IMG/VR virus record: IMGVR_UViG_3300028581_000020
Span: 1-64,000 of that record
Reading direction: 5' to 3' (one strand)
Length of the DNA stretch: 64,000 nt
DNA from: a virus
Part shown: positions 6,441 through 26,114 of the stretch, one piece after another
Layout of the letters: each line of letters starts with the position of its first letter
Numbering within the stretch: position 1 is the stretch's first letter
Notes under the pieces: generated by a model
Databases searched by the model: none
What the model saw: only the letters and a program-made list of their open reading frames with translations
Told to the model about the DNA's origin: nothing
Program-made: the position numbers and the translations under genes

Positions 6441-6464
6441 CTCATTCAATAATAATGATACACT
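6437..6464 (+). promoter_or_regulatory. Promoter overlapping a cassette stop
   Basis: TTGACT at 6437-6442, 16-base spacer, TACACT at 6459-6464. The gene start at 6483 has a GGAGGAA ribosome-binding site, so this promoter gives a normal leader, unlike those at 7622 or 33944. Confidence 0.5.
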
Positions 6465-6482
6465 TACTATGTGGAGGAAACT

Positions 6483-6740: not shown

Positions 6741-6970
6741 AGAAAGTCCGGCTTGGGCAGATTTTTAAGGCCAAAGAGGGATCTATATATTACGGCGCAA
6801 CTTGGAAATGCATTAATGTCAGAAATGGAAAATTCCAAGAGATGTCAAATCCTAAAGATTGTATCGAAGATCCAGTTCACAGCTTTATCAGAGATTGGGA
6901 AGAAAGCGATTGGATTGACGTGACGAAAGAATATGAAGTTAATGAAGAAGTTAAGGATTTGTTGAAATGA
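6737..6970 (+). CDS. Module protein, 77 aa
   Basis: Opens MKKVRLGQIFKAKEG; ends WIDVTKEYEVNEEVKDLLK, the best match to the long consensus in the window. Followed directly by the 11-residue micro-ORF at 6967. Confidence 0.75.
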   Translation: MKKVRLGQIFKAKEGSIYYGATWKCINVRNGKFQEMSNPKDCIEDPVHSFIRDWEESDWIDVTKEYEVNEEVKDLLK

Positions 6971-7002
6971 CTTCATTAACATTCAGTCGAGCTTTGCAAT
7001 GA
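6967..7002 (+). CDS. 11-aa micro-ORF, copy 1 (MTSLTFSRALQ)
   Basis: ATG is fused with the upstream cassette stop (AAGGA nine bases before) and its TGA is fused with the ATG of the next gene at 6999. A second copy, MISLTFNRASQ, sits in the same arrangement at 26079 before the DNA polymerase. The copies differ at six bases: two changes are silent and four alter three residues. Leader peptide or regulatory RNA element are both possible. Confidence 0.55.
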   Translation: MTSLTFSRALQ

Positions 7003-7259
7003 GTCTCGGTGATATTAAATGTCGCATTTCTGCTGACGCAACAACAAAACTCCTTAAGTATAAAGACAAAGACTTCCTACCCTTCCGAGTGCAGGATTAT
7101 ATACAGAAAGCCATTGAATGCGTCTTTGAAATCTCCCCTAAAGAAGCCGAAAACATGGTGACGTTCTGGACTATTGAGGGTTTAATTAACGTTTTTGAAG
7201 CTGAGACGAATAAGATTCTAGAAATCATTTTGGAAGAAGAGCAGGAGGGACAATGTTGA
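6999..7259 (+). CDS. Hypothetical protein, 86 aa
   Basis: Mostly helical by residue pattern (DYIQKAIECVFEISPKEAEN) with an acidic C-terminus (ILEEEQEGQC). No family recognised. Starts at the end of micro-ORF copy 1, with no clear Shine-Dalgarno of its own, which suggests coupling to that micro-ORF. Confidence 0.6.
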   Translation: MSLGDIKCRISADATTKLLKYKDKDFLPFRVQDYIQKAIECVFEISPKEAENMVTFWTIEGLINVFEAETNKILEIILEEEQEGQC

Positions 7260-7447
7260 TTGTAATGGTGTCGCTATTGTGGCTTTTGAGTGTTACCTGT
7301 GCTCTATATATTTGGGCGAAAAATTTTGATGAAATTCAATATATCGCACTATTTTGTGCGATTATTGGCGGCCCCGTAACGCTTCTAGTTTGGGGAATGA
7401 TGTTTCTAAATGGCAGGAACCACGTTGTCTGGAGACGGAAGAAATGA
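7253..7447 (+). CDS. Two-helix membrane protein, 64 aa
   Basis: Strong AGGAGG site just upstream of ATG. Two hydrophobic spans (LIVMVSLLWLLSVTCALYI and IALFCAIIGGPVTLLVWGMMF) with a basic C-terminal tail. Unknown; shape is holin-like but its position in the early region argues against lysis. Confidence 0.6.
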   Translation: MLIVMVSLLWLLSVTCALYIWAKNFDEIQYIALFCAIIGGPVTLLVWGMMFLNGRNHVVWRRKK

Positions 7448-7653
7448 TGCCTAAAGTCGGAGAAATTTGGAGATTTTGCAACTCTAAAAATTGGAGGATT
7501 CATAAAATTGACTCCAAATGGGCAACACTTGAATCTCCCGATACTGGCGAATTTGTCCAACAATACAACACTAGATATTTCGAAACTCCCGGCTTATGGA
7601 AACACACAAAACATTCTATTATTGACAAAGAAGTGAAAGATCTGCTATCCTAA
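7444..7653 (+). CDS. Module protein, 69 aa
   Basis: Start ATG fused with the preceding stop. Opens MMPKVGEIWRF, ends SIIDKEVKDLLS. This is a clear case where the module DNA is also a promoter (TTGACA from the Ile-Asp-Lys codons). The stop is TAA and the next gene does not overlap it. Confidence 0.7.
   Translation: MMPKVGEIWRFCNSKNWRIHKIDSKWATLESPDTGEFVQQYNTRYFETPGLWKHTKHSIIDKEVKDLLS
7622..7651 (+). promoter_or_regulatory. Promoter inside a module, leaderless geometry
   Basis: TTGACA 7622-7627 (within Ile-Asp-Lys codons), 18-base spacer, TATCCT 7646-7651. The next ATG is at 7658, seven bases past the -10, where +1 is expected; there is no Shine-Dalgarno between. Confidence 0.5.
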
Positions 7654-7657
7654 TCCC

Positions 7658-7933
7658 ATGACACTTATTCAATTCTTTATTGGTCTTTTTGTCTTTATAT
7701 TTGGATATTTGTATTTCCAATCTGTTCTTAAAGACCTTCGCAAAAACGTAATGCCTGGCGATGTTGTTGGTATTCGTTTTGGCGATTATGTCGTCAATAG
7801 AAAAATTCGTGCTATCTCCGGAACGACAGTTGATGTTTTAAGCCTCAAAGGCAATAATGTAATTACTGTTGACAAATCCAATATCTATGTTTGGGATAAA
7901 TTTGCCATTGAGGATGAGAAAATTGATGTCTGA
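7658..7933 (+). CDS. Membrane-anchored small protein, 91 aa
   Basis: One N-terminal transmembrane segment (LIQFFIGLFVFIFGYLYF) followed by a soluble beta-rich domain (GDVVGIRFGDYVVNRKIRAI, TTVDVLSLKGN). Unknown function. Probably the first gene of the transcript from the promoter at 7622. Confidence 0.6.
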   Translation: MTLIQFFIGLFVFIFGYLYFQSVLKDLRKNVMPGDVVGIRFGDYVVNRKIRAISGTTVDVLSLKGNNVITVDKSNIYVWDKFAIEDEKIDV

Positions 7934-7988
7934 TTTGATTTATAAATTTGCAGAAATACAAAAAGAAGTAAAGGATTTACTATCATGA
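7926..7988 (+). CDS. 20-aa cistron consisting mostly of the module
   Basis: Product MSDLIYKFAEIQKEVKDLLS. ATG overlaps the end of the upstream gene; AAGGA lies nine bases before the ATG of nrdA, and TCATGA fuses stop and start. It looks like a cassette that has lost its N-terminal part but kept the piece that feeds the next gene. Confidence 0.6.
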   Translation: MSDLIYKFAEIQKEVKDLLS

Positions 7989-9712
7989 ATCTCGAAGACC
8001 TAAAGAAACGTGGCGATGCTCCGGAATGGATGTCGCCTGAGAGTTTTTCTACCCTTTGTGGTGGGTACCTCCTACAAAATGAAACCCCCAAGGACGCGTG
8101 GAAACGTGTATCAGAAGCTTCAGCAAAGAAATTGAATCGACCCGATCTTGCGCCAAAATTCTTTGACGCCATTTGGAAAAACTGGCTGGCGTTGGCGAGC
8201 CCCGTGATGTCAAATATGGGAACAAGTCGCGGGTTACCCATAAGTTGTTTTGGGCAGCTTATTGGTGATAGTTTGTCTGATATTTTCATGGGTTATCACG
8301 AATCGGCAATGTTGTCAAAACACGGCGGCGGCATTGGAAAGTATTGGGGTGACGTTCGTGGTCGCGGAACTCCCATTGGTCTTAATGGCGTCTCTGAAGG
8401 CGTCATTCCCTGGCTAAAGAATGAAGACGCTAACATCTCTTCTGTATCGCAAGGTGGTGTTCGTCGTGGCGCTTCTGCAAATTACCTCCCTGTATGGCAT
8501 CCCGACATTGAGGAATTCATTGACATCCGTCGTCAAACCGGGGAAGATTCTCGCCGCGCTCGTTCCACACAATTTCACCACGCTGTCGTTTGCGACGACG
8601 ATTTTATGAAGGCAATCAAAACCGGGGATAAATCCAAGCGAAAGCTATGGAGCAGTATTCTGCGTACAAGGACAGAAATGGGCGAGCCCTATCTCATGTT
8701 CTCAGATAATGCAAATAATCAAGCCCCAAAATGGTATAAAGATCAAGGCTTGGTTATTAAAACCTCGCAACTCTGTAACGAATTGTTTCTATTCAACGAC
8801 GAAAATCACACATTTGTATGCTGTCTTTCCAGTCTTAATGTCGCTAAATTTGACGAATGGAAGAATACAGACCTTGTAGAACTCGCCACATATTTCCTAG
8901 ATGGCGTAATGCAAGAATTCATTGACAAGGCAAAAGGCATCTCAGGCTTTGAGAAAGCTGTTAGATTCTCAGAGAAGAGCCGAGCTTTAGGTTTAGGCGT
9001 CCTAGGATGGCACACATTGCTTCAAAATAAAGGCATTCCCTTCGACTCCTTCGATGCTATGATGCTCAATAGAGACGTGTTCTCGCTCATCCAAAGGGAA
9101 TCTGTGAAGGCTTCTCAGAAGATGGCGACAGAATACGGAGAACCTGAATGGCTAAAGGGCTATGGTATGCGTAATTCGCATCTCCAAGCCGTGGCCCCAA
9201 CAATGAGTAATGCTCTCATTTCCGGAGGAGTTTCCCAAGGTATCGAGCCTATTGTAGCCAATGTTTACGCCCAAAAGACGGCCAAGGGGGTGTTTCTGCG
9301 AAAGAATCCCGCTCTTGCCGCTATTCTAGAAGCTAAAGGTAAGAACAATATTGACGTTTGGAATAAAATTAATAGTGATAAAGGCTCTGTTAAGAATCTG
9401 GATTTCCTATCCCAAGATGAAAAGGAAGTCTTTAAAACTGCTAGGGAAATCAACCAATTCGCCCTAGTTCGACAAGCTGCACAGCGGCAAAAGTTCATTG
9501 ATAATGGACAATCACTAAACCTTTTCTTCACAATTCCCGAAGATGTTGGTGATACAGAACTCAAGAAGAAGTTAGGAAAATATATTCACGAAGTTCATTA
9601 TGAAGCTTGGCAAACGGGTTTAAAAGGTCTATATTACCTTAGAGCCGAATCACCATTACGAGGAGATGCTATTTATCATGAAGAATCCGACTGCCGGAGT
9701 TGCGAAGGTTAA
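7985..9712 (+). CDS. nrdA: Ribonucleotide reductase class I large subunit
   Basis: 575 residues, short for the family because the N-terminal ATP-cone is missing. Visible signatures: GLPISCFG (redox cysteine), SKHGGGIGKYWGDVRG, SQLCNE (active-site cysteine and glutamate), VCCLSSLN, and a C-terminal DCRSCEG pair that would shuttle electrons from thioredoxin or glutaredoxin. Reduces ribonucleoside diphosphates together with NrdB at 13193. Translation is coupled to the mini-module cistron upstream. After the TAA, the same frame continues into a module-like sequence that ends right at the next start (see 9713). Confidence 0.9.
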   Translation: MNLEDLKKRGDAPEWMSPESFSTLCGGYLLQNETPKDAWKRVSEASAKKLNRPDLAPKFFDAIWKNWLALASPVMSNMGTSRGLPISCFGQLIGDSLSDIFMGYHESAMLSKHGGGIGKYWGDVRGRGTPIGLNGVSEGVIPWLKNEDANISSVSQGGVRRGASANYLPVWHPDIEEFIDIRRQTGEDSRRARSTQFHHAVVCDDDFMKAIKTGDKSKRKLWSSILRTRTEMGEPYLMFSDNANNQAPKWYKDQGLVIKTSQLCNELFLFNDENHTFVCCLSSLNVAKFDEWKNTDLVELATYFLDGVMQEFIDKAKGISGFEKAVRFSEKSRALGLGVLGWHTLLQNKGIPFDSFDAMMLNRDVFSLIQRESVKASQKMATEYGEPEWLKGYGMRNSHLQAVAPTMSNALISGGVSQGIEPIVANVYAQKTAKGVFLRKNPALAAILEAKGKNNIDVWNKINSDKGSVKNLDFLSQDEKEVFKTAREINQFALVRQAAQRQKFIDNGQSLNLFFTIPEDVGDTELKKKLGKYIHEVHYEAWQTGLKGLYYLRAESPLRGDAIYHEESDCRSCEG

Positions 9713-9787
9713 TTTCCCTATCAATATATTACTACCAGAATCAAATCTTTAGAAATATCCCAAGAATTACAGGACATATTGAAATGA
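9713..9787 (+). pseudogene. Headless EVKDLL module in frame after the nrdA stop
   Basis: Reading on from the nrdA TAA in the same frame gives an open stretch without ATG that ends EISQELQDILK and TGA; CAGGA sits before the fused ATG of the next gene. It is a cassette 3' end without a start, perhaps a scar of a deletion or a former C-terminal tail of NrdA. Readthrough would attach the module to NrdA; nothing in the sequence proves that this occurs. Confidence 0.5.
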
Positions 9788-10032
9788 AATATAAAGTTGG
9801 AGATGTTTTTTATGCAAAATGGCCAAAATATGGTCATGTTTGGAAAATTGAAGTAATTGGTAAAAGAGGAAGATCTAACGCCACGATAGTAGATCCCGCA
9901 AAAACTGATTGGAAGCTCGGTGAAACTATTAAAAATTCCAACGCTAAACTATTTTCTATCGACGAAGGGTGGATTCATATCCCAGCTAAAGAATTTGACG
10001 TTTTAGACGAAGTGAAAGATCTTCTCGCGTGA
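9784..10032 (+). CDS. Module protein, 82 aa
   Basis: Start at the ATG fused with the headless module's TGA. Opens MKYKVGDVFYAKW with further strands (HVWKIEVIGKRG), consistent with a small SH3-like barrel. Ends FDVLDEVKDLLA; the last codon GCG makes the next start a GTG (GCGTGA). Confidence 0.7.
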   Translation: MKYKVGDVFYAKWPKYGHVWKIEVIGKRGRSNATIVDPAKTDWKLGETIKNSNAKLFSIDEGWIHIPAKEFDVLDEVKDLLA

Positions 10033-10280
10033 TTTTAAAACGTGGCCATGTTGAAGTTGGTCGGACGTATAAATATGTCGGCTCTCGTTATGGTTTTGAT
10101 ACGGTCGAAGTGACGAGAATACTATTAAAAGACGATATTGTCGGAAATTATAAATACGGGGAAGTAATTTGGCGAGATTTGTCGCTAAGCTTTTATGATC
10201 CCCTAGATGATTTAAAAGATCTTGTTGACATCACAAAAGAGATTGAGGTAAACTCTGAGGTGAAGGATTTATTGAAGTGA
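10029..10280 (+). CDS. Module protein, 83 aa, GTG start
   Basis: Paralogue of the protein at 25822: both have G-R/G-x-Y, a VEV strand, and G-N/K-Y-x-Y-G-(E/D) in the middle. Ends VDITKEIEVNSEVKDLLK. Start GTG is fused with the upstream stop. Confidence 0.7.
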   Translation: MILKRGHVEVGRTYKYVGSRYGFDTVEVTRILLKDDIVGNYKYGEVIWRDLSLSFYDPLDDLKDLVDITKEIEVNSEVKDLLK

Positions 10281-10531
10281 CTAAACCCGAAATTGGAAGA
10301 TTATATCAATGGCAACCAGACGTAAGAAATACAGCAGACATTGCCAAAGAAAATAAAGACAGAGTATTCAAATTCACTAAAGTCGGACCAAAACTATGGG
10401 CATATGAGTATTTAGATGAAAACTATTCTTTTGAATACGATATGGAAGATTATCCAGATAGATTTGATTATTTAATTGACGTGACAAAAGAAATTGAAAT
10501 ACAAGACGAAGTGAAAGAGCTACTTAAATGA
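10277..10531 (+). CDS. Module protein, 84 aa, GTG start
   Basis: Tyr/Asp-rich N-terminal part (VFKFTKVGPKLWAYEYLDEN) and long module LIDVTKEIEIQDEVKELLK. AAAGA serves as ribosome-binding site for the RNA ligase gene. Confidence 0.7.
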   Translation: MTKPEIGRLYQWQPDVRNTADIAKENKDRVFKFTKVGPKLWAYEYLDENYSFEYDMEDYPDRFDYLIDVTKEIEIQDEVKELLK

Positions 10532-12738
10532 GCACATTCAAAGTTCCCGTCACAACTATTCGTGAAGTATTCGTGCATCCAAATGCCGATTTGCTTGAAA
10601 TTGTCAAGGTGTACGATTGGAATGTGGTCGTTTCTAAAGGTAAATATAAAGCTGGAGATAAAGTCGTTTATGTTCCAGTTGACAGTATTCTTCCCCTAGA
10701 TTTAGAAGAAAAGATCTTTCCCGTAGGATCGAAGGTAAAGCTTAAGAACCATAGAATTCGAACAATCAAACTTCGTAAAGCTATTTCCCAAGGAATGATT
10801 CTTGCTATGGAATTTCTTCCTGAGGCAAATTATAAAGAAGAACAGGACGTATCGACAATCCTCGGCATTACAAAATACGAAGAGCAGGAACTCCCCGAGA
10901 GCATGAAATTGAAGGGCGCAAAATCCAAGAAGAAGGGAAATCCCAACTTCAAGAAATATACAGATATTGAGAATTTCAAATATTATGACCGAGTTTTCCA
11001 AGATGGGGAACTGGTTTATATTTCGGAGAAGCTGCATGGATGTCTAAGAAATAATACGAAAATCACGTTGACAAACGGAGATACTAAAACTATTCAAGAC
11101 ATCGTTGATAATAAACTGGAAGTTGAAGTTTGGGGAATTGATAACGATTCTCAAAAACTTATTCCGACTAAAGTTGTCAATTGGTTTAATAACGGAATTT
11201 CACACGACTGGCTAAATATTCGAATGACACGAAGTCGAATGGGCCGGGGAAATAGTTTTGCGGCAATTGACGTTACCCCAAATCATCAATTCTATAATCC
11301 AAATACAAAGCAATATGTCGCTGCCGGGAATCTCAAAGTCGGCGATTCTGTTTTGTATTATCGAAATGATAGACAAGTTAGCTACGTTCAAGAACAAATC
11401 CTTATTGGAAAAATGTTAGGGGACGCATCTTATAATAAAAGTACCAATATTGTCACCTTTGGCCAGAAAGAACTTCACGAAGATTATCTTGACGAGACTT
11501 TAAAAAATCTAGGAGATGTCGGTGGAAACCGAAGCAAAAATCAACAATCCGGATACGGAACGACAATGTGTCGCGGCAATACTAACTCGCTATTAAAATT
11601 CAATGACCTATTTTTGGATTGGATTTCGGGAACACAAAAGGTTGTTCCGGCGTCCATTGCCAATAAATTAGGACCAATCGCCCTAGCATATTGGTATATG
11701 GATGACGGCTCTTTGTCGTCTGTCGAAGGTCAAGAAGACAGGGCCGCGTTTGCTACTTGCGGCTTTGATGAAGCCTCTATTGATAATTTGGTTACTGGAC
11801 TTAATAATGTTGGAATTTCTCCTATCAAATATCAAGCCGATGGATATTGGAGATTACGATTAAATGCAGACGAAGCTGAAAAACTTTTTGTCTTGATTTC
11901 TCCATATGTGGTCCCTTGTATGCGCTATAAATTGCCAGAAAGATATAGAAATTGCACAGTCACAGATGTTATTCAAAAAAGTTCGCAGTATAAGCCTAAG
12001 CTTGTCGAACAAAAAATTATTGGGATTACCCCTATCCAAAACCATAAATCTAAAAATAACACTAGATACGATATAGAAACCGAATGTCACAATTTCATAG
12101 CCGATGGGGTTGTTGTTCATAACTCGTCCTTCCGCGCTGGTTGGTTTAAAAATGCTCCCGACACACTCTGGAAGAAAATCCTATTCCTATTTGGCGCTCT
12201 TCCAGAATGGGAATTCTGTTGGGGATCGCGAAATGTGCAAATTCAAAGCAAGCTGTTAAAAAAACATTCCGGGGCAAAGATCGAATCCCAAGGCGTCGAT
12301 TTTGGCGATGTTTATACAAAGATGGTCGATCAATATTCTCTTCGTGAAAACATTCCTAAAGGCTTTTCTGTATATGGTGAAATTGTCGGGCCTGGAATTC
12401 AACGTAATTATGCATATGGATGCGCAAATGGCGAACATAAGCTCTTTGTATACGACATTATGGACGAGCATGGGAAATGGCTTGACTATCCTAGATTCAA
12501 GCGCTGTGTGGCAAATTGGGGCTTAGAGAGGGTCCCTGAGTTGTATGTAGGTCCTTTCTCTAAATCTGTTGTCGAAGAACATCGGGAAGGGGATTCGACC
12601 ATTGGCGGACAAAAAGTCCGGGAAGGCGTCGTTGTTAAACCTCTGGTTGAACGACAAACGCCCTCTCTCGGTCGCCTTGTATTGAAAGCCATTTCCGAGG
12701 CTTATTATCTCAATAAAGATAATACAGAATTCCACTAA
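10528..12738 (+). CDS. RNA ligase (Rnl5-like) interrupted by an intein
   Basis: 736 residues before splicing. Exteins: residues 1-171 and 533-736, giving a 375-residue ligase after splicing. The N-terminal extein resembles the OB-type domain of Deinococcus-type Rnl5 ligases. Nucleotidyltransferase motifs after splicing: I EKLHGSSFR (lysine adenylation site), III FSVYGEIVG, IV EGVVVKP, V LVLKAISEA. It would seal RNA ends prepared by the phosphatase at 5377 and the kinase at 17203. The gene is fused to the upstream cassette through ATGA, and its TAA shares a base with the next ATG. DNA ligase activity is less likely from the motif set. Confidence 0.8.
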   Translation: MSTFKVPVTTIREVFVHPNADLLEIVKVYDWNVVVSKGKYKAGDKVVYVPVDSILPLDLEEKIFPVGSKVKLKNHRIRTIKLRKAISQGMILAMEFLPEANYKEEQDVSTILGITKYEEQELPESMKLKGAKSKKKGNPNFKKYTDIENFKYYDRVFQDGELVYISEKLHGCLRNNTKITLTNGDTKTIQDIVDNKLEVEVWGIDNDSQKLIPTKVVNWFNNGISHDWLNIRMTRSRMGRGNSFAAIDVTPNHQFYNPNTKQYVAAGNLKVGDSVLYYRNDRQVSYVQEQILIGKMLGDASYNKSTNIVTFGQKELHEDYLDETLKNLGDVGGNRSKNQQSGYGTTMCRGNTNSLLKFNDLFLDWISGTQKVVPASIANKLGPIALAYWYMDDGSLSSVEGQEDRAAFATCGFDEASIDNLVTGLNNVGISPIKYQADGYWRLRLNADEAEKLFVLISPYVVPCMRYKLPERYRNCTVTDVIQKSSQYKPKLVEQKIIGITPIQNHKSKNNTRYDIETECHNFIADGVVVHNSSFRAGWFKNAPDTLWKKILFLFGALPEWEFCWGSRNVQIQSKLLKKHSGAKIESQGVDFGDVYTKMVDQYSLRENIPKGFSVYGEIVGPGIQRNYAYGCANGEHKLFVYDIMDEHGKWLDYPRFKRCVANWGLERVPELYVGPFSKSVVEEHREGDSTIGGQKVREGVVVKPLVERQTPSLGRLVLKAISEAYYLNKDNTEFH
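11041..12123 (+). mobile_element. Intein with LAGLIDADG homing endonuclease
   Basis: 361 residues from Cys172 (CLRNNTKITL, block A) to a terminal His-Asn before Ser533. Block B-like DVTPNHQFYN and blocks F/G YDIETECHNFIADGVVVHN are present. Two dodecapeptide motifs, LIGKMLGDAS and LAYWYMDDGS, mark a LAGLIDADG endonuclease with both acidic residues. The insertion point is directly after the K-x-H-G of ligase motif I, so the unspliced protein should be inactive. Splicing and homing both look intact. Confidence 0.9.
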
Positions 12739-12950
12739 TGTCGCTTATTACACGGGAATATTATAAGTGTCTTTGTGGCTGTAAAGACATTTGTGAAGTT
12801 TTACAAATAGAAGACCCAAACTACTTTATTCGATAGGATCGAACTAAGATTATAGAACTTTGGTATGCTGGATCTGATTGTTTTGAACATCTCCCCAACT
12901 ACAAAAAATCAAAAGTCATTGACAAAGAGTTAAAAAAGCTGTTAGAATAG
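12738..12950 (+). pseudogene. Cassette of the HLPNY subfamily broken by an amber codon
   Basis: Starts at the ATG fused to the ligase TAA and reads 32 codons to an in-frame TAG at 12834-12836. The frame then continues uninterrupted to HLPNYKKSKVIDKELKKLLE and TAG, the typical end of this subfamily. TAG ends other genes in the window, so general recoding is unlikely; a decayed gene, a fresh mutation or a sequencing error are the options. Its 3' end still works as promoter DNA for the next gene. Confidence 0.65.
12919..12948 (+). promoter_or_regulatory. Promoter inside a decayed module, near-leaderless
   Basis: TTGACA 12919-12924, 18-base spacer, TAGAAT 12943-12948 (5 of 6 to consensus). Next ATG at 12957, nine bases after the -10. 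Confidence 0.55.
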
Positions 12951-12956
12951 ATTCAA

Positions 12957-13196
12957 ATGATCGAAGTTGGGCAAGTTCGTGAGTGGATTTTAGGCTCTGG
13001 TATAAACGCCAATACTAACCACCATTTAGGACCATTTAAAATCACAGCAATATCCAATGATCGAGTATATTATACCTATATAAATTTTCTTATAGAAAGA
13101 ACAGATTTGTATAGGCCAGCATCAGAACTTGAAGCCGAATCTGGTATTTGTAAATCATACATTATTAATCAAGAAGTAAAGGATCTATTATTTTGA
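12957..13196 (+). CDS. Module protein, 79 aa
   Basis: Opens MIEVGQVREWIL; central strands FKITAISNDRVYYTYI. Ends YIINQEVKDLLF; Phe from TTT makes the stop/start fusion TTTTGA, so nrdB starts with TTG. No Shine-Dalgarno upstream, in keeping with the leaderless promoter. Confidence 0.7.
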   Translation: MIEVGQVREWILGSGINANTNHHLGPFKITAISNDRVYYTYINFLIERTDLYRPASELEAESGICKSYIINQEVKDLLF

Positions 13197-14155
13197 CTCT
13201 CCTTTCGACAAGAACCTCGTATTCTCCCATCCTTTATCCCAAAGCGCAAGAATTCAATGAAGCTCAGCGTTCTGTATTCTGGCTTCCAAATGAAATCCCT
13301 ATGGGTAAAGACATCCAAGATTGGAAGATGAATTTGACGACAAACGAACAACAAGTTGTTGGTCATATTCTAAAAGGCTTTGTTATTACAGAAACTTTCG
13401 TTTCAGATTTTTATTCGTCTAAAGTTGCTCGCTGGTTCAAGCATCCAGAAATCCAACGCATGTCCGCAACTTTCTCAGCATTTGAAGGCATTCATGCCGA
13501 AAGCTACGCCCGGCTTAATGAAAACCTGGGACTCCTAGACTTTGACGCTTTTCTCCACGAACCGACAGCAAAAGCCAAGATTGACCGATTGATGAACACA
13601 AAAGGCAATGGCAAAGCCGACATTGCTCGTCAATTGGCCATTTTCTCAGCATTCACAGAAGGCGTCAATTTGTTCTCATCTTTCGCCGTTCTTCTTTCCT
13701 TCTCAAAGCGAAACCTGCTAATGGGAGTTGGAAAGATCATTGAATTTAGTATTCGTGACGAATCCCTCCATTCCCGCGCTGGTTGTTGGCTTTTCAATGA
13801 ATTTATTAAGGAATATCCAGAGATTTGGACGGACGAATTGAAGAAGGAAATTTATGAAGCCGCGCGCCTGACAATCGAGCTGGAAGACAATTTTATTGAG
13901 AAGGCTTTCGAAGGTGGGAACATTGAAGGTCTCGATCCCAAGGACTTGAAAATGTATATCCGATACAGGGCTAATTCAAAGCTTCAAGAACTAGGACTAA
14001 AGAGCAATTGGAAAAACATTGACAAGGACGCATTAAATCGTCTACAATGGTTTGACGTTATGTCTCAAGGAGTAAATTTACAAGATTTCTTCGCAGGGAG
14101 AGTTTCGGAATACGCCCGTTCTGGAGCAGATTTCGACGATATTTATGAAGATTGA
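13193..14155 (+). CDS. nrdB: Ribonucleotide reductase class I small subunit
   Basis: 320 residues, ferritin-like helical protein. Metal ligands and radical site are visible: FEGIHAESYARL (E, H and the candidate radical Tyr), FTEGVNLF, and IRDESLHSRAGC (D/E-x-x-H). Works with NrdA, encoded 3.5 kb upstream and separated by cassettes and the RNA ligase. TTG start fused with the upstream TGA with AAGGA in the module; the first in-frame ATG lies much later, so TTG is favoured. Confidence 0.9.
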   Translation: MTLLSTRTSYSPILYPKAQEFNEAQRSVFWLPNEIPMGKDIQDWKMNLTTNEQQVVGHILKGFVITETFVSDFYSSKVARWFKHPEIQRMSATFSAFEGIHAESYARLNENLGLLDFDAFLHEPTAKAKIDRLMNTKGNGKADIARQLAIFSAFTEGVNLFSSFAVLLSFSKRNLLMGVGKIIEFSIRDESLHSRAGCWLFNEFIKEYPEIWTDELKKEIYEAARLTIELEDNFIEKAFEGGNIEGLDPKDLKMYIRYRANSKLQELGLKSNWKNIDKDALNRLQWFDVMSQGVNLQDFFAGRVSEYARSGADFDDIYED

Positions 14156-14940: not shown

Positions 14941-14941
14941 T

Positions 14942-17197: not shown

Positions 17198-17202
17198 CTT
17201 TT

Positions 17203-17625: not shown

Positions 17626-17628
17626 TAA

Positions 17629-18515: not shown

Positions 18516-18802
18516 GAATTTTATTAACTGTACTAGTTATTTCATTAATTAGCATTCTATTTCTTTCTTGTTCAACTTCAAAAGAATCTTTATTTTCTTA
18601 TAATCAAACTCAACTACTGGATCTTCAAGAAAGTAGTTTTGTAACTGGCTGTATTGGTGGTTTTATTAATCTATATCAATTGGGAATGTATAAACCTACA
18701 AGCCCAGACGGTCACGCAAATTATGAAAAAATCAAGCTGGGATGTCAACAACAAGGAATTCTTTATCGCCTAGAACTCAGACAATTACACGGTGGTCTAT
18801 GA
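18512..18802 (+). CDS. Predicted lipoprotein, 96 aa
   Basis: Signal peptide with lipobox (ISILFLSC, Cys about residue 21), so likely anchored to inner or outer membrane facing the periplasm. The mature part has GCIGGFINLYQLG and no known domain. A role in superinfection exclusion is common for phage lipoproteins but is only a guess here. Stop fused with the next ATG. Confidence 0.65.
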   Translation: MRILLTVLVISLISILFLSCSTSKESLFSYNQTQLLDLQESSFVTGCIGGFINLYQLGMYKPTSPDGHANYEKIKLGCQQQGILYRLELRQLHGGL

Positions 18803-19512
18803 GCCTTATTGACGAATTTGTAAATGGTTACATTGCCCCTAATGGTGGAGGGAAAGCTGAGCTTTGGGATGAAACTGATGGCTTGTATCCTGGCGCTTCG
18901 CGTCGTGCTATTAACGAAAACTCTATCCTATTCCTTGTCCAACCAGCACTAGAACTTGATCCTGAAGGGAAGGACCCACGTATTGCTAACGCCTATTGCC
19001 GCTTTACAGACGCGGCCACAATTGACACTGGGCTTTATGGACGCTGGCCCGGACATATGCCTGGGAAATACGACTACATTGGACAATCACACGATAACGT
19101 TGTATGCCATTCTATTGGCTCTTGGTTATACAACACAAAACATGCCGCACAAATTTGTGATTATGGAGAAGAGCATTGGTTCTCTTATAATGTAAAAAAG
19201 CTAGGGAAATTCGACATTAAGCAGTGGTTACAGCCGGGAGACTGGGCAATTGTCCGCCTTGCAGCAAAAAGAAATCCTGGACTTATCCCCAGTATTTGGC
19301 TGGCCGTAGGTCTTTCTATCACAAAGAATTGGAATCTGGCTGATGTTCGTGTTCAATTTCTAAATAAGGTAAAAATCCCTTGGTACTATCGCTGGATTAT
19401 TATGTTTGGCGTTCGTCGTTATGAATCTAGAAGCATCCCCAGAGCTATGTGGGTTAAGAGTTTTTATAGAGATGACGGAAACCCCTTCAAAAAGAAACTC
19501 CTCACCGATTAA
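18799..19512 (+). CDS. Conserved-looking protein of unknown function, 237 aa
   Basis: Start at the ATG fused to the lipoprotein stop; an earlier in-frame ATG at 18742 would run inside that gene. Trp- and Tyr-rich soluble protein with PGHMPGKYDYIGQSHDN, DYGEEHWFSYN and WYYRWIIMFGVRRYESR. It could bind membrane or sugar, but I recognise no family. Confidence 0.65.
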   Translation: MSLIDEFVNGYIAPNGGGKAELWDETDGLYPGASRRAINENSILFLVQPALELDPEGKDPRIANAYCRFTDAATIDTGLYGRWPGHMPGKYDYIGQSHDNVVCHSIGSWLYNTKHAAQICDYGEEHWFSYNVKKLGKFDIKQWLQPGDWAIVRLAAKRNPGLIPSIWLAVGLSITKNWNLADVRVQFLNKVKIPWYYRWIIMFGVRRYESRSIPRAMWVKSFYRDDGNPFKKKLLTD

Positions 19513-19517
19513 ATAAC

Positions 19518-19546
19518 TTGACACACAAACAAGCCTTTGGTATTGT
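19518..19546 (+). promoter_or_regulatory. Strong leaderless promoter
   Basis: Perfect TTGACA 19518-19523, 17-base spacer, TATTGT 19541-19546. The ATG at 19553 begins seven bases after the -10 at the expected +1 and there is no binding site upstream. The promoter is intergenic here, not within a module. Confidence 0.65.
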
Positions 19547-19552
19547 GTTTGT

Positions 19553-19795
19553 ATGACGTTTCAAGATCTATACGTAGGTGCCGAACTTAAACATAAAGAT
19601 TGGGTCGGTCCAGCCAAAATATATAATGATGATAGTTGGATTGTTATTAGTTTTCAAACAAATAGAGCCAACGTTCAATTATCGTCAAATCCAAAAATTA
19701 TTTCATATTTCAATAACCAAGATTTCACATACGATGGCTGGTTCATAGTCAAAGCTTATGAAATTAATGAAGAAATTAAAGACCTTCTAAAATAA
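19553..19795 (+). CDS. Module protein, HKDW subfamily, 80 aa
   Basis: Sister of the protein at 18276 (shared ELKHKDW, DDSWIV). Ends KAYEINEEIKDLLK with a TAA stop and no fused start. It seems to be the first gene of a leaderless transcript. Confidence 0.75.
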   Translation: MTFQDLYVGAELKHKDWVGPAKIYNDDSWIVISFQTNRANVQLSSNPKIISYFNNQDFTYDGWFIVKAYEINEEIKDLLK

Positions 19796-19805
19796 AGGAG
19801 ATAAT

Positions 19806-20027
19806 ATGTCAAAAAATAAATCAGAACCCATAAAGCTTGTAGAAATGCCTCATATTGCAATTTCTGTAGTCAAAAACGAGGAGGGTAAATGGGTACTTGT
19901 CGAAGTTGCATTTGATCTCGTTACCGGAAAGGCCGAGGTGCGACATGTCACTAATACCGGGGAAAGTGGGAGAGACTTTGGTATTGATGCCTTTAAGAAA
20001 GCCGCATCGGAGCATAATTTTGTATGA
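19806..20027 (+). CDS. Hypothetical protein, 73 aa
   Basis: AAAGGAG six bases before ATG. Beta-strand-rich (HIAISVVKNEEGKWVLVEVAF) with a short C-terminal helix. No module. Unknown function. Confidence 0.6.
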   Translation: MSKNKSEPIKLVEMPHIAISVVKNEEGKWVLVEVAFDLVTGKAEVRHVTNTGESGRDFGIDAFKKAASEHNFV

Positions 20028-20206
20028 ATGTGATTTTAGGAATTGTTACGTTCCTTCTTCTAGAAGTTGCATTGTATTTGACAATTGGGAGTTTATTGCT
20101 TAGTATTTCCCCAATGCACGCGTATGTAATTGGCGGACTTTTAATCCTACGCCTTGTTACTGGATTTTTTGTTAAAAAAGATTTAAAATTGGAGCAAAAG
20201 AAATGA
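20024..20206 (+). CDS. Two-helix membrane protein, 60 aa
   Basis: Two hydrophobic spans (ILGIVTFLLLEVALYLTIG and HAYVIGGLLILRLVTGFFV) with a basic C-terminus (KKDLKLEQKK). Coupled by ATGA on both sides to its neighbours. Function unknown; it may assist the exported proteins that follow. Confidence 0.6.
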   Translation: MNVILGIVTFLLLEVALYLTIGSLLLSISPMHAYVIGGLLILRLVTGFFVKKDLKLEQKK

Positions 20207-20949
20207 AAAAGTATTTGATGCTTCTAGCCCTAACGGCCTGCGGTCCTTTTGTTGTTCCTCTTTTTAAAGGCGACAAGGGATCTGCCGGTAAAGACGGCGC
20301 TTCCGGTGTTCAGGGTGAAAAGGGTGATCGGGGCGAAGTCGGTCCTCGTGGCATGGACGGATATTCTATTGTATCCCGTAGCGAAGCTGCTAGCCTTGTA
20401 GATTGTCCTGCAGGCGGGAATACTGTAGTCCTCGCCCAAGATCGTGATTATGATGGCGTTTTTACCGATGCGGATCTTCAGTATTCTGTATCGAGTTTTG
20501 TTGCTTGTAATGGCCTTATTGGTGCTCAGGGTCCTCAAGGCCTGGCAGGGAATCCTGGTCAAGATGGAGTAAACGGACAGGACGGCGCTCAAGGGCCTCA
20601 GGGTATTCCCGGCACGTCTTCGGTACTTGTCGGGGTCGGAAACATGGCCGTATGTAGTCACTCATGGATGCTTTTCTCGGATGGCCGACTGATTCTAAAC
20701 GAAAGCTCGGCATCAGCGTCTTCTGGTAATAACCTGGGAACTTGGTATATCCCATATGACACGGCGTTTAATCTAGCTATTGGTGGAAATACAACGTGTA
20801 GCAATATGCGATATCGTCTCAATACAAACCTTGAACGAATCCTTCGTTACGATAACGGGTGTTTCTTGCTTGAAAGTTTGAATGGTGATAATAACTGGGC
20901 AAACGAGACGGCTCTTCCCCTAACCGATTCTCGGTGTAACACACTATGA
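20203..20949 (+). CDS. Collagen-like lipoprotein, 248 aa
   Basis: Signal peptide with lipobox LTAC (Cys13). Two blocks of Gly-x-y triplets (residues about 23-50, GDKGSAGKDGASGVQGEKGD; and about 107-140, GAQGPQGLAGNPGQDG) flank a globular segment, and a C-terminal globular domain with several cysteines follows. Triplet blocks should form a triple helix. An exported, membrane-tethered trimeric fibre is expected; a virion fibre would not need a lipobox. It may coat the infected cell. Coupled to the fibre-like gene downstream. Confidence 0.7.
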   Translation: MKKYLMLLALTACGPFVVPLFKGDKGSAGKDGASGVQGEKGDRGEVGPRGMDGYSIVSRSEAASLVDCPAGGNTVVLAQDRDYDGVFTDADLQYSVSSFVACNGLIGAQGPQGLAGNPGQDGVNGQDGAQGPQGIPGTSSVLVGVGNMAVCSHSWMLFSDGRLILNESSASASSGNNLGTWYIPYDTAFNLAIGGNTTCSNMRYRLNTNLERILRYDNGCFLLESLNGDNNWANETALPLTDSRCNTL

Positions 20950-22055
20950 AAAAATTACCTGTAAGCCTATTGTTTATTAGTTGTTTATCAAATGCACAAA
21001 CACTCCTAGACGGTGGAAATTCTACAGGATATCCACTAATTATGGGAACAAATGATAATAATCCGGTAAATATTATAACCAACAGTATAAATCGAATCTC
21101 TATATTATCAGGAGGACAAGTTGGAATTGGTAATAACTCCCCCACAGATAATGGGCTATCTTTATATAAAACAATCGACGGAAATTCTACTTGGAGTAAT
21201 TTAGACGCAGTTCTTGTTGTCAACTCTTCAGGAACCGGCTCGTATCATCAAGGACAATATGTTGGCGTTCGAGCAAATCATCCTTCAGGAACTTTAGACT
21301 TATTGCGAAACTATAATACGTGTGAAATGACTGGCGACGGCGTTCTCACTGAGTGCTATGGGAATCGAGCGATTACTAGACTGTTCGATTATAATGCAGG
21401 CGGCAATGATACGACAGAAGGCACGATTGTCAATGGATTTGGCCTAGAAGCCTATGTCGGGACTAATACTATCAGCACTGGTAAAATTCGCAATGCAACA
21501 GGAATTTATATTTCCCGCGCTCACGCGACCGGCGATGATCCCGGAAGCGATCATAAAGCTGTCGGTCTTAGAATTGATAATATTGTCGCCTCCGGAGGAG
21601 ATAATAATCAAGCGCTATCTATTTGGTCAAATACAACGGCGCTGTCGGTTTTCAATGGACCAATTCAAACCCCTAATCTTCTTCCGGTATCTGCGTTTAG
21701 TGGAAGCGTTGGAACCTTCGATACACCATACGACAGCATTTACGCTGGAGGGTTTAAAGCAAAAGTAAACGGATACGAGTTCGCCATTTATCCCGGAAAT
21801 ATGAATCAGAATATGCGTTGGTTCATGCCAACAAGTCACGGGACGGCAGGACAGGCCTGGGTAGAAGACGGAACCGGAGTAATCGAGCCTGGATCAGTTA
21901 GCGACGTACAAATTAAAACCCCGAGCACGCAGCCAACCTGTACTAGCCAATTGAGAGGAAAAGTGTGGAATGTTGAAGGCGGTTCTGGAGTTGCGGATCA
22001 ACCTCAAATGTGTATTAAAAATTCCTCAGATATTTACGTTTGGTACAACTTATAA
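20946..22055 (+). CDS. Exported fibre-like protein, 369 aa
   Basis: Signal peptide MKKLPVSLLFISCLSNAQ with a probable cut after Ala17. The mature protein has Gly/Asn/Ser-rich beta-repeat character (GGQVGIGNNSPTDNGL, GIYISRAHATGDDPG) as in phage and bacterial surface fibres, and a C-terminal CTSQLRGKVWNVEGG segment like the end pieces of tail-fibre and exported proteins. Its start is fused with the stop of the collagen-like lipoprotein, so both are probably exported together. Confidence 0.65.
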   Translation: MKKLPVSLLFISCLSNAQTLLDGGNSTGYPLIMGTNDNNPVNIITNSINRISILSGGQVGIGNNSPTDNGLSLYKTIDGNSTWSNLDAVLVVNSSGTGSYHQGQYVGVRANHPSGTLDLLRNYNTCEMTGDGVLTECYGNRAITRLFDYNAGGNDTTEGTIVNGFGLEAYVGTNTISTGKIRNATGIYISRAHATGDDPGSDHKAVGLRIDNIVASGGDNNQALSIWSNTTALSVFNGPIQTPNLLPVSAFSGSVGTFDTPYDSIYAGGFKAKVNGYEFAIYPGNMNQNMRWFMPTSHGTAGQAWVEDGTGVIEPGSVSDVQIKTPSTQPTCTSQLRGKVWNVEGGSGVADQPQMCIKNSSDIYVWYNL

Positions 22056-22061
22056 ATTGTA

Positions 22062-22090
22062 TTGACAGTAGAAAAAAACTCGTGTACTGT
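22062..22090 (+). promoter_or_regulatory. Strong promoter for the recombination/replication genes
   Basis: TTGACA 22062-22067, 17-base spacer, TACTGT 22085-22090. A 39-base leader with an AAGGA site leads to the ERF gene ATG at 22129. Confidence 0.7.
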
Positions 22091-22128
22091 AATAAAACAC
22101 CAACAATTAAAAAGGAAATTATAATAAA

Positions 22129-22668
22129 ATGAACAGCTCACCAAGCGTTACGAAAATTGCCGCTGCCCTTCTCAAAGCTCAGAAAGAAATGGGCGACGCA
22201 TCAAAAGGTTCGAAAAATCCCTTCTTCAAATCAAGCTATGCAGATCTAAACTCCGTACGAGAAGCTGTTACCCCGGCGCTCAATGCGAACGGAATCACGG
22301 TTCTCCAACCCATGGTGGCTCGTGAAGGAAAGCAATTTGTACAGACTCTCCTTCTCCACGAAAGTGGCGAATGGTTCTCTTCGGAAACGGAAGTTGTTTG
22401 CGCAAAACAAAATGATCCTCAAGCGGCAGGAAGCGGCATTTCATATGCTCGACGTTACGGTCTTCAGTCCTTCCTATCAGTAGGTGCCGTTGACGATGAC
22501 GGAGAAAGCGCTATGGCTCGCCCCCAAAAGACCTGGGCTAAGCCTGCCGAGAAAGAAGAACCTAAGTGGCCTGAAACTGTTCCCGCAGCAAAAGAAGAAG
22601 CTCCCAAGCCTTCAAGCTCGTTCCGTAAACCCCCGGCTAAGAAAGAATCAGAAAGTGAGTGGTCATGA
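22129..22668 (+). CDS. ERF-family single-strand annealing protein
   Basis: 179 residues. N-terminal AKIAAALLKAQKEM-like helix, NPFFKSSYADLNSVREAV, and GSGISYARRYGLQSFLSV are the ERF family landmarks; the C-terminal 50 residues form a Lys/Pro/Glu-rich tail typical for partner binding. Anneals complementary single-stranded DNA in phage recombination. The first gene behind the 22062 promoter. TCATGA fuses it with the next gene. Confidence 0.85.
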   Translation: MNSSPSVTKIAAALLKAQKEMGDASKGSKNPFFKSSYADLNSVREAVTPALNANGITVLQPMVAREGKQFVQTLLLHESGEWFSSETEVVCAKQNDPQAAGSGISYARRYGLQSFLSVGAVDDDGESAMARPQKTWAKPAEKEEPKWPETVPAAKEEAPKPSSSFRKPPAKKESESEWS

Positions 22669-23063
22669 GCGAACAAGAAGTCCTCGATCCTAAAGAAGTA
22701 GAACAACAACTTCTTAATGAACAAAGCCAGCCCCAAGTATCGGATGATCCCGAAGAGATGGCGGCAACACTATTCACTCTGTATCGTCCTCGTTACGATG
22801 CTCTGGTTAACAACTTGTCGTCAAATGCTATGCGCCGTCTTCTAAAGAAAATGGTGGTCTTTCCGCTAAACGAAAAGGAAATGAAGTCTACCTCCAAAGA
22901 AGAGAATGAGGCCTTCGCAATTTCTCAACGACTTCTTGAGGCTAAATATGTAATGATTATGTCCACATATCAAAAGGCCGCAGAAGAAGCGTACAAAAAA
23001 CAACAAGAAACCGAACAAGTTAAAACACAAGAAGAAACCCAAAAGGAGAATGAAAATGGCTAA
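22665..23063 (+). CDS. Acidic helical protein, 132 aa, ERF neighbour
   Basis: Start at the ATG fused with the ERF stop. Very Glu/Gln-rich, ending KQQETEQVKTQEETQKENENG; central FTLYRPRYDALVNNL and MRRLLKKMVVFPLNE. A role in recombination or as an ssDNA accessory factor is suggested only by its place. Confidence 0.6.
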   Translation: MSEQEVLDPKEVEQQLLNEQSQPQVSDDPEEMAATLFTLYRPRYDALVNNLSSNAMRRLLKKMVVFPLNEKEMKSTSKEENEAFAISQRLLEAKYVMIMSTYQKAAEEAYKKQQETEQVKTQEETQKENENG

Positions 23064-23325
23064 GTGGAAACGTCGCACTATTGGTAGTGTTGTTAAGTCT
23101 AAGGAAGCTGGAGAACCTGATTATATTAAGATTGGTGATGATGTCGTTCTCAAAAAAGGCGACACTCTTCGTCTAGAATCAAAAGCCGCACAACTTCGTA
23201 ATCTAGAAGAAGGCGTTCAAGCTGGAAGGCTGGGCGAAGAAACTGCCTCAAAGATTCGAGAACGCCTAGATCGGTTTCCTGAATGGGTACGTTTTGAAAT
23301 TGTTCAGCTAACTAAACAGCAATAG
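23056..23325 (+). CDS. Small basic protein, 89 aa
   Basis: Start at 23056 with AAGGAG seven bases before; an upstream ATG at 23050 would be only two bases from that site. Contains KRRTIGSVV, a beta segment (IKIGDDVVLKKGDTLRLES) and a helix (EETASKIRERLDRFPEWV). Last gene before a terminator. Unknown, perhaps a DNA-binding partner. Confidence 0.6.
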   Translation: MAKWKRRTIGSVVKSKEAGEPDYIKIGDDVVLKKGDTLRLESKAAQLRNLEEGVQAGRLGEETASKIRERLDRFPEWVRFEIVQLTKQQ

Positions 23326-23333
23326 TTCTATTC

Positions 23334-23374
23334 GGCCCTTTGACAGACTTTATGATCTGTTTTAGGGCCTTTTT
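23334..23374 (+). terminator. Rho-independent terminator
   Basis: Outer stem GGCCCT (23334-23339) with AGGGCC (23364-23369), inner stem ACAGA (23343-23347) with TCTGT (23356-23360), followed by TTTTT. It closes the ERF operon. Confidence 0.8.
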
Positions 23375-23379
23375 GTATC

Positions 23380-23502
23380 ATGAATAAGCTGCTAGTATTT
23401 TTGTGGGTATTATGGGTCTTCCCTTGGTTATTACTTATATTATTATATTGCACTATTGAGGCTTTCTTTTTTCCAGAGTTTAAATCTTATAAGAGGTATT
23501 AA
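23380..23502 (+). CDS. 40-aa membrane micro-protein
   Basis: One strong hydrophobic span (LLVFLWVLWVFPWLLLILLY) and a short basic tail (PEFKSYKRY). Lies between the terminator and the primase-helicase gene and ends one base before its ATG. No Shine-Dalgarno is seen, so translation is uncertain. Confidence 0.4.
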   Translation: MNKLLVFLWVLWVFPWLLLILLYCTIEAFFFPEFKSYKRY

Positions 23503-25437
23503 ATGAGATATGTTCGACTCACTACAAACTTCGCCGATAAAGGGAAGCTAGTTCCGCATGACAAAGTTTGGGACTTTATTAAAAATGATAAAGAACATTA
23601 CGTAAGCACTTATTATTATAATGATAAGCACTTTGAACAATTTCAAAAGACCGGCAGTGTCAAAGGAATTCGTGACGTTGTTGCCGATAAAATTTGGTTT
23701 GACTTTGATAACAAAGAAAATCCGGCCCTTGCCCAAGCTGACTGTCTCACAGTTGTTGAACGTCTTAAACGTCAAGGAATTCCCGACTCTGACATTCAAG
23801 TTTTCTTTTCGGGACAAAAAGGCAATAACATCGTAGTCGATACAAAACAAACACTGACCCCCGAAGAAGTCGCTCGTGTGACAGAAAAACTAGCGGGAGA
23901 TCTTAAAACGTTTGACTTGTCTCTGTATGACGCTTCGCAAATTATGCGTGTTCCAGGAACAAAGCATCAGGCTTCCGGCCTATATAAAATTCCGCTTACA
24001 ATTCCCCAACTTACAAAGGATATCTCTCAAATTAGGGAAATGGCAAAGGATCTTTCGAATGTTGGAGATTTTCAATGGGGAAGAGCTAGTTTGCCTCCAG
24101 ACCTTCTAAAAGCTCCTCCAGCTAAAAAGAATACCCCAGCAGCGCAAATGCCTGTTGTTGGACCTTCGAATCCTCCGTATGGCTGGAAAGCGTATAAATG
24201 GGCATTAGTACAAGGGAACTTCGAATCCGGCGAACGGCATAACGCCTTGATGGTTGTTGCCGCTACATGTCGTGGTTTGGGATATGACAAAAATACCACT
24301 TATTATATCTGCAAAACCGCTATTAAGAACCAAGCGGCTATCTCTGGCGCAGACGAATTCCCTAAAGAAGAGCTATTTAAAAACATCATCGAGGAGTCTG
24401 TATTCTCCGATGGCTGGGAAGGTGGGTCTTATTCGCCTAAAACTAACCCATGGCTTCGTAAATATTGCGAGCGAATGGGGTTTAAATGGGAAGATGACAT
24501 TGAAGAAAATCCTTGTGTATCCCTTGATGACATGACACAAACGTTCTCAAGCTACGCACAAAACTTCGAACAAAATATTATTAAGACCGGACTTGTTGAG
24601 CTTGATAATAACCTTATCCTTTCAACATCAACTCTTAACGGACTTCTTGGGCAGCCCGGAGCAGGTAAAACCTCCGTGTGTTTAAACATCCTTCGGCACA
24701 CGGCAAAAAATAATATTCCGTCTATCTTCTTTAGTCTTGATATGGGCCTTCCCCTCATCTACTCAAAACTTGTACAAAAGGAAACCGGATACGATTTTAA
24801 GCGCGCAATGGACGTTTATAGAAACAATTCCGATCTACGGGAAAAAGTCTCTCAAAAAATTAAAGAAGATTATAAGAATGTTTCTTTTAATTTTAAATCC
24901 GGAGTGACGGTCGCTGATATTAAAAAGATTAAGCGAGCACAAGAAGAACTATCAGGCAAGAAGATTCGTCTCTGTGTCATCGATTATTTGGAATGTATTG
25001 CTAGTCCGTTCTCTGATGCCACAGCCGGAGCAGCTTTCATTGCTAATCAATTAAAAGATCTTGCCAATGAAGAAGAAATGTGTGTATTGCTCCTTCTTCA
25101 AACGCAGAAACACTCTACCGCTGATATTTCAGATCCTTTGCTTTCTATGAAGCAAATTAAGGGATCGAGTGTTATTGAACAAGCGTGCTCGACGATTTTA
25201 ACTCTATGGAGAGAAGGATATTCACCCAAGACCGTCAATGACGATAGGTATTTATCTTTTGCTGTTGTAAAAAATCGCTTTGGAAGTCTTTGGAGCGGCG
25301 ATTTTTCTTGGAATGGCGTCACAGGTGATGTATCATCTCTAACACAGGAACAAGTTATTCAACTAGACGATTTTAAGCAGCGTAAATTCGAAGCTAAAAT
25401 GAAGCTTGAGAAGGAAAGCAAGGCCCAATGGGATTGA
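23503..25437 (+). CDS. Primase-helicase fusion (AEP-like primase + RecA/DnaB-like ATPase)
   Basis: 644 residues. The N-terminal third has archaeo-eukaryotic primase features: WFDFDN (Asp67, Asp69), SGQKGNN near 103, and RVPGTKH near 150. A linker helix domain follows. The C-terminal half has Walker A GQPGAGKTS at 383-391 and Walker B LCVIDYLECI, as in DnaB/RecA-type hexameric helicases. It would unwind and prime at the phage fork, with the polymerase at 26111-28277. GAGG is present ahead of the start. Confidence 0.8.
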   Translation: MRYVRLTTNFADKGKLVPHDKVWDFIKNDKEHYVSTYYYNDKHFEQFQKTGSVKGIRDVVADKIWFDFDNKENPALAQADCLTVVERLKRQGIPDSDIQVFFSGQKGNNIVVDTKQTLTPEEVARVTEKLAGDLKTFDLSLYDASQIMRVPGTKHQASGLYKIPLTIPQLTKDISQIREMAKDLSNVGDFQWGRASLPPDLLKAPPAKKNTPAAQMPVVGPSNPPYGWKAYKWALVQGNFESGERHNALMVVAATCRGLGYDKNTTYYICKTAIKNQAAISGADEFPKEELFKNIIEESVFSDGWEGGSYSPKTNPWLRKYCERMGFKWEDDIEENPCVSLDDMTQTFSSYAQNFEQNIIKTGLVELDNNLILSTSTLNGLLGQPGAGKTSVCLNILRHTAKNNIPSIFFSLDMGLPLIYSKLVQKETGYDFKRAMDVYRNNSDLREKVSQKIKEDYKNVSFNFKSGVTVADIKKIKRAQEELSGKKIRLCVIDYLECIASPFSDATAGAAFIANQLKDLANEEEMCVLLLLQTQKHSTADISDPLLSMKQIKGSSVIEQACSTILTLWREGYSPKTVNDDRYLSFAVVKNRFGSLWSGDFSWNGVTGDVSSLTQEQVIQLDDFKQRKFEAKMKLEKESKAQWD

Positions 25438-25465
25438 GAGTGTTTAAAGTCCTTCGGGAGTGAAA

Positions 25466-25825
25466 ATGATGATTATCGAATGGTTTGTTGTTTTATTGGC
25501 GTTTGTTGTTTATTTATTCATTGGATTTATTGTAAGCCGCTGGCATATTAAAAGTCTTATTATTAATCAGTTTAAAAAACTTGAAAATATAAACGAGAGG
25601 CGAGAATTTAAAAAATGGACAGCAATTAAGGTTGATACTGAGTTAGATGACGCACTAACGCCAGTTCGAATTGTAATTTGGCCATTCTATGTGGTGTGTC
25701 AATTATTTTTTTGGGTTCCTGCTGTCATTAAATTTTTCGATAATATGTTAGTTGATAATATTCAAAAGAATCTACATATTAAAGAAGATGAGGTTCAAGA
25801 AGAAGTCAAGGGGCTTTTGAAATGA
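25466..25825 (+). CDS. Membrane module protein, 119 aa
   Basis: Start at the ATG behind GGGAG; an ATG three bases later is equally possible. N-terminal transmembrane span (IEWFVVLLAFVVYLFIGFIV), a second hydrophobic stretch (VIWPFYVVCQLFFWVPAVI), then EDEVQEEVKGLLK. It shows that the module can be joined to a membrane protein. Lys-Gly is coded AAGGGG, which still works as a binding site. Confidence 0.65.
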   Translation: MMIIEWFVVLLAFVVYLFIGFIVSRWHIKSLIINQFKKLENINERREFKKWTAIKVDTELDDALTPVRIVIWPFYVVCQLFFWVPAVIKFFDNMLVDNIQKNLHIKEDEVQEEVKGLLK

Positions 25826-26082
25826 AGCAAAGAAAGCACATAGTAGTTGGTGGAAGGTATTTAAACACGGGTATCTTCGATGATGGTTATTTTTTTCATC
25901 ATGTCGAAGTTGAAGGGTTTTCTGGTAATGTCATCATTGGTAAATATTATTACGGTGATTCATTAAAGAATTCTTCATTTACAAACGTAACGCACTTAGA
26001 CTTTAATGATGAAGATCTTGATGCTCTCGTTTCCATGAAAGCTTTAGAAATTGATATTGAAGTGAAGGATCTTCTAAAATGA
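25822..26082 (+). CDS. Module protein, 86 aa
   Basis: Paralogue of 10029 (GGRYLNTG, HHVEVEGF, GKYYYGDSL). Ends LEIDIEVKDLLK. Directly followed by micro-ORF copy 2. Confidence 0.7.
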   Translation: MKQRKHIVVGGRYLNTGIFDDGYFFHHVEVEGFSGNVIIGKYYYGDSLKNSSFTNVTHLDFNDEDLDALVSMKALEIDIEVKDLLK

Positions 26083-26114
26083 TTTCACTAACGTTCAATC
26101 GAGCTTCGCAATGA
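26079..26114 (+). CDS. 11-aa micro-ORF, copy 2 (MISLTFNRASQ)
   Basis: Same arrangement as at 6967: ATG fused with a cassette stop, TGA fused with the ATG of the DNA polymerase. The bases just before the polymerase ATG (gcttcgca) lack a purine-rich site, so polymerase translation probably depends on ribosomes finishing this micro-ORF. Confidence 0.55.
   Translation: MISLTFNRASQ

Follow-up and report, generated by a model that had tools for sequence, protein, structure and literature searches.

Twin 36-base units ahead of a DNA polymerase gene and an 86-residue protein gene in a bacterial virus: candidate translational-coupling elements

In a bacterial virus recorded as IMGVR_UViG_3300028581_000020 (104,527 bases), two open reading frames of only 11 codons lie 19 kb apart, each between a small cassette gene and a longer gene, and they raise the question of what so short a unit, present twice, may do for the genes that follow it. 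The window analysed comprises positions 1 to 64,000 of that record (64,000 nucleotides). A preliminary description of this DNA had placed the units at 6967-7002 and 26079-26114, encoding MTSLTFSRALQ and MISLTFNRASQ, and had each fused by ATGA to the cassette before and to the gene after; the sequence agrees in all these respects, and both junctions were confirmed in both copies. The units and their neighbours are:

6737-6970, plus strand: cassette gene before copy 1, 77 aa, ending in EVKDLLK and a stop
6967-7002, plus strand: micro-ORF copy 1, MTSLTFSRALQ and a stop, ATGACTTCATTAACATTCAGTCGAGCTTTGCAATGA, with an ATGA overlap at both ends
6999-7259, plus strand: gene for an 86-aa protein that follows copy 1; a low-confidence prediction makes the protein all-helical
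23503-25437, plus strand: gene for a DnaB-like helicase
25822-26082, plus strand: cassette gene before copy 2, 86 aa, ending in EVKDLLK and a stop
26079-26114, plus strand: micro-ORF copy 2, MISLTFNRASQ and a stop, ATGATTTCACTAACGTTCAATCGAGCTTCGCAATGA, with an ATGA overlap at both ends
26111-27619, plus strand: gene for a family B DNA polymerase, covering the exonuclease domain and the beginning of the polymerase domain (Pfam DNA_pol_B, 5e-17)
27606-28277, plus strand: second ORF of the split DNA polymerase, holding its remainder and matching DNA_pol_B profile positions 221-344 at a score below the curated cut-off

The copies are identical at 31 of 36 bases. Six differing bases had been counted previously, four of them altering three residues and two silent; the two silent changes and the three altered residues (T/I, S/N, L/S) hold, whereas the differing sites number five (unit positions 5, 10, 15, 20 and 29), of which three alter residues. 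Every difference is a transition, and the residue-changing ones all fall at codon position 2. Ungapped pairs with at least 31/36 identity are expected by chance only about 0.0009 times in the whole record, and a whole-record scan allowing up to 16 mismatches found no third copy closer than 13 mismatches; given this rarity and the lack of a nearer third match, the twin units can be taken as real and homologous. A degenerate pattern for their 5' 26 bases matched twice in the window, against 0.06 matches expected, and across the 104,527 bases it matched the twin units alone.

Beyond this pair, the family could not be extended. A search for the peptide pattern, as the preliminary description had suggested, gave no match elsewhere, and neither the peptide nor the base pattern had a true copy in the IMG/VR or GTDB contigs. 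Ten IMG/VR matches of the DNA pattern, belonging to two unrelated sequence families and having neither cassette tail nor ATGA borders, were rejected as chance. The DNA pattern of the cassette tail gave single matches per contig only in IMG/VR, no DNA match to 5800-8000 was found in phage records, and no close relative turned up through the polymerase, the helicase or the 86-aa protein. The composition of the record also bears on the count. From about 64 kb to about 101 kb its GC content is 51-62%, compared with about 40% before, and this part carries podovirus-like head-tail connector and tail genes. A 1.7-kb fibre segment with BclA_C and C1q domains occurs twice (62086-63787 and 100348-102049, 87% identical), its copies flanking about 36 kb of higher-GC DNA. 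The record is probably more than one genome, with two phages joined at the fibre gene, either as an assembly chimera or as a true hybrid; what is present of the phage of interest may therefore be only a part, and the missing part may hold additional copies of the unit.

Each unit is preceded by a cassette gene with a tail of the EVKDLLK type, which is common to some 30 genes of the region. The tail, E-[VIL]-x-x-[LI]-L-[KAS] followed by a stop and mostly EVKDLLK, EVKDLLA or EVKDLLS, forms the C-terminus of about 30 different small and middle-sized proteins on the plus strand between 489 and 35298 of the window, and its codons usually supply AAGGA for the next gene. Some tails, for example ELDNLLA at 33963, keep the peptide where the ribosome-binding (SD) sequence is lost, a pattern suggesting that a C-terminal tag is under selection at the protein level. 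Downstream of the tail that ends at 35298, the junction (35254-35331) folds with unusual stability (-22.7 kcal/mol, z -4.4) and is possibly a terminator closing the cassette region. Tails also occur bare or nearly so: MDKDLLK and a stop at 31339-31362, ahead of a 213-aa gene at 31359 (nucleotidyltransferase-like by eye); a tail-only ORF of 20 residues, MSDLIYKFAEIQKEVKDLLS and a stop, at 7926-7988, ahead of ribonucleotide reductase; and, after that same gene, a tail at 9716-9787 that lacks a start codon. These look like cassette remnants acting as SD donors, and such short remnants would fit a genome in which cassettes arrive, decay and leave translation adaptors behind. In the same region, an RNA ligase gene (10528-12738) contains an intein that carries a LAGLIDADG endonuclease domain.

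Before both units, the tail codons AAG GAT yield AAGGA nine bases ahead of the next ATG:

6953-6957, plus strand: AAGGA SD for micro-ORF 1, within the EVKDLLK codons that end the cassette gene before it; TAAGGA at spacing 9, with a duplex energy of -5.9
26065-26069, plus strand: AAGGA SD for micro-ORF 2, within the terminal codons of the cassette gene before it; spacing 9, with a duplex energy of -5.5

These sites, lying inside the preceding genes, had been passed over in the preliminary description, which stated that the downstream ATGs have no purine-rich site before them. The latter is correct insofar as the polymerase and 86-residue genes have no SD; each has only GAG at spacing 7, with a duplex energy of -2.2 compared with the -5.9 and -5.5 of the micro-ORFs.

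Because of this gene layout, the unit is likely linked to translation of the gene downstream. As the favoured explanation, to which we give an even chance, it would be a minimal cassette of 11 codons that serves as a translational-coupling element and ties downstream output to the cassette array. Ribosomes would start on the micro-ORF from the AAGGA that lies within the preceding cassette's tail, read the 11 codons and halt at the ATGA, where part of them would reinitiate at the overlapping ATG of the polymerase or the 86-residue gene. Both genes would be tied to the cassette array in this way and their output set, probably at a lower level, with the peptide itself probably dispensable. In support of coupling, the ATGA overlap is exact at both ends of both copies, and the micro-ORFs have the SD energies that the downstream ATGs lack.

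The limits of the conserved block also argue for coupling. Identity between the two loci is 75% over the last 20 bases of the tail, 86% over the unit and 30% past it; because it falls from 86% to 30% at the second ATGA, where unit stop and downstream start overlap (6999-7002 and 26111-26114), the block stops exactly there. The tails of cassettes 1 and 2 are each nearer to other tails than to each other, the closest to tail 1 being those ending at 6013 and 32637, and the closest to tail 2 the one ending at 30293. The paralogue nearest to cassette 1 is found immediately past the polymerase (28277-28516; 78% identity over 78 bases, 28437-28514) and is not followed by a micro-ORF. Since the tails differ in history and the paralogue is without a micro-ORF, the unit is best read as more than a passenger of one duplicated cassette. 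The same paralogue lends itself to another account, namely that the units are neutral or nearly neutral scars, short pieces duplicated or transferred by recombination at shared tails and kept because they do no harm to the reading chain. A paralogue on the far side of the polymerase implies that material moved between the two regions; other remnants are present in the phage (the tail ending at 9787, the MDKDLLK ORF and the 20-residue ORF ending at 7988); and the changes between the copies are scattered over codon positions 1, 2 and 3. A scar would, however, have had to land twice with identical ATGA borders before genes without an SD, and the flanking tails have a history other than that of the units, so that this account appears somewhat unlikely and is ranked level with the RNA operator considered below.

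Relatives of the polymerase, fetched from IMG/VR at 44-52% identity, provided a view of the locus in other genomes. In three of them (L040, L014 and L043) the polymerase directly follows the helicase gene, an arrangement that favours coupling, whereas in the window the two are separated by a pair of cassette genes and the micro-ORF; as the relatives' polymerase adjoins the helicase directly, the cassettes and micro-ORF look inserted. None of the seven relatives inspected has a comparable micro-ORF ahead of the polymerase. Absence from relatives had been named in advance as counting against a functional unit; it weakens the case but is not decisive, as no close relative of this phage was found. 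Coupling itself has to accommodate three observations: the seven relatives do without a micro-ORF, the 31/36 conservation between copies is more than coupling alone needs, and a missing SD is not peculiar to the polymerase and 86-residue genes, an SD of at least 4 bases being absent from 23 of 82 genes of the region in a crude automatic gene call.

The two downstream genes were also considered in their own right. That copy 2 precedes a DNA polymerase, as first described, is correct as to the enzyme, which is of family B; the gene, however, is split in two overlapping ORFs (26111-28277; 502 and 223 aa), divided before the DTDS motif. Relative L046 also has a divided polymerase, with the break at nearly the same point and a small additional gene separating the two parts. 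The best phage matches of the polymerase were Salinibacter (28%) and Nostoc/Anabaena phages, and no Escherichia phage was among the 90 polymerase-match records. The suspicion by eye that the 86-aa protein is ClpS found no support, with no Pfam match, an all-helical model of pLDDT 62 and no fold match.

The preliminary description had proposed a leader peptide or an RNA operator. A functional peptide, in which the 11-residue product would act as a leader peptide or small effector, is very improbable. Both frames are open and of equal length, but three of the five changes, each of them at codon position 2, replace a residue, and comparison of the two copies revealed no protein-level constraint on the peptide. 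Further, the peptide has no match in IMG/VR or GTDB contigs and, unlike the leaders of attenuation systems, neither MTSLTFSRALQ nor MISLTFNRASQ has a run of codons for one amino acid, a run of rare codons or a stalling motif. The frame of the downstream gene would make three of the five changes silent, which also speaks against the peptide; as a product in itself, this downstream-frame reading (NDF[IT]N[IV]QSSFA-M) was laid aside as unnecessary; it has a stop just before it and no start codon, and would require a +1 frameshift at AAA-TGA. The leader peptide is thus without support, and the RNA operator is the part of the earlier proposal that is still possible, on the basis of a weak fold at the start of each micro-ORF with two compensatory pairs and a UAAC loop:

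6969-6988, plus strand: candidate hairpin 1, GACU-UC-AU-UAAC-AU-UC-AGUC, weak fold
26081-26100, plus strand: candidate hairpin 2, GAUU-UC-AC-UAAC-GU-UC-AAUC, weak fold, with two pairs changed on both sides relative to copy 1

The helix would comprise G3-C22, A4-U21, the 5-20 pair, U6-A19, an internal loop, A9-U16 and the 10-15 pair, closed by the loop UAAC. Four of the five differences make up two compensatory changes in one helix register, C5-G20 to U5-A20 and U10-A15 to C10-G15, with the fifth outside the helix. An operator so formed would be bound by a phage protein, either the polymerase or another replication protein, which would block initiation on the micro-ORF and with it the coupled gene, making the polymerase and the 86-residue protein a regulon of two members. 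Joint folding of both copies returned exactly this hairpin, and when five random transitions were placed on copy 1, 9% of trials produced two nested compensatory helix pairs and 0.7% produced them in one register. The covariation nevertheless rests on a single pair of sequences, the fold energies (-1.6 and -1.1 kcal/mol; z -1.1 and -0.6) are little better than those of shuffles, and in longer context the copies favour other folds that differ from each other. A UAAC loop is also present in the gene 43 operators of T4 and RB69 (PMC3014915), and 2% of random 40-base windows of this phage's AT-rich DNA contain a TAAC hairpin; as such hairpins are common enough in this DNA, the likeness is suggestive only and serves as a lead. 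TAAC or CAAC hairpins in the polymerase relatives (4 of 7) are about as frequent as in random 170-base windows of this phage (40%), and the hairpin sits before the GAG and does not cover an SD of the polymerase. Over the whole record, a descriptor of the UAAC hairpin picked out, on the plus strand, both units and a single further place attributed to chance; no Rfam family matched the window. A longer hairpin of cassette tail and unit, with 10 perfect pairs in copy 1, was rejected, being absent from copy 2 and having ordinary z-scores. Taken together, the operator is a serious rival to coupling but appears somewhat unlikely, no more and no less so than the kept scar. The bolder form of the proposal, a polymerase RNA operator of the T4 type that evolved independently in a distant polymerase B lineage and lies on a micro-ORF, with one binder silencing two genes 19 kb apart, is more doubtful still.

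Should the units be couplers, they would give a cassette-packed phage a way to keep core replication genes translated after cassettes have been inserted upstream of them; should the hairpin be an operator, translational control linked to a polymerase would be known from a second, independent case, again with the UAAC loop. The closest parallel for coupling is termination-reinitiation, which is general at stop-start overlaps, where 13 of the 14 gene pairs tested showed strict coupling and four of five E. coli pairs showed weaker coupling without the SD (PMC6728339). As in that system, stop and start overlap as ATGA, here on both sides of the unit, the downstream start is ill-served by its own SD, and the upstream ORF has an initiation signal of its own, AAGGA at spacing 9. 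The present case differs in that the upstream partner is an ORF of 11 codons found in two near-identical copies before unrelated genes, and in that the SD lies inside a repeated C-terminal tail. With the autogenous gene 43 operators of T4 and RB69 (PMC3014915), the unit may share a small hairpin with a UAAC loop ahead of a family B phage polymerase, though the candidate fold is weak and not favoured in longer context. Those operators extend over the polymerase gene's own SD and involve no micro-ORF (loop AAUAACUC, read from the genomes), whereas the candidate hairpin here overlaps a micro-ORF start and ends 10 bases before the polymerase ATG, with no SD before 26111 except GAG; moreover, a second copy stands before another gene, and the polymerase is not close to T4 gp43.
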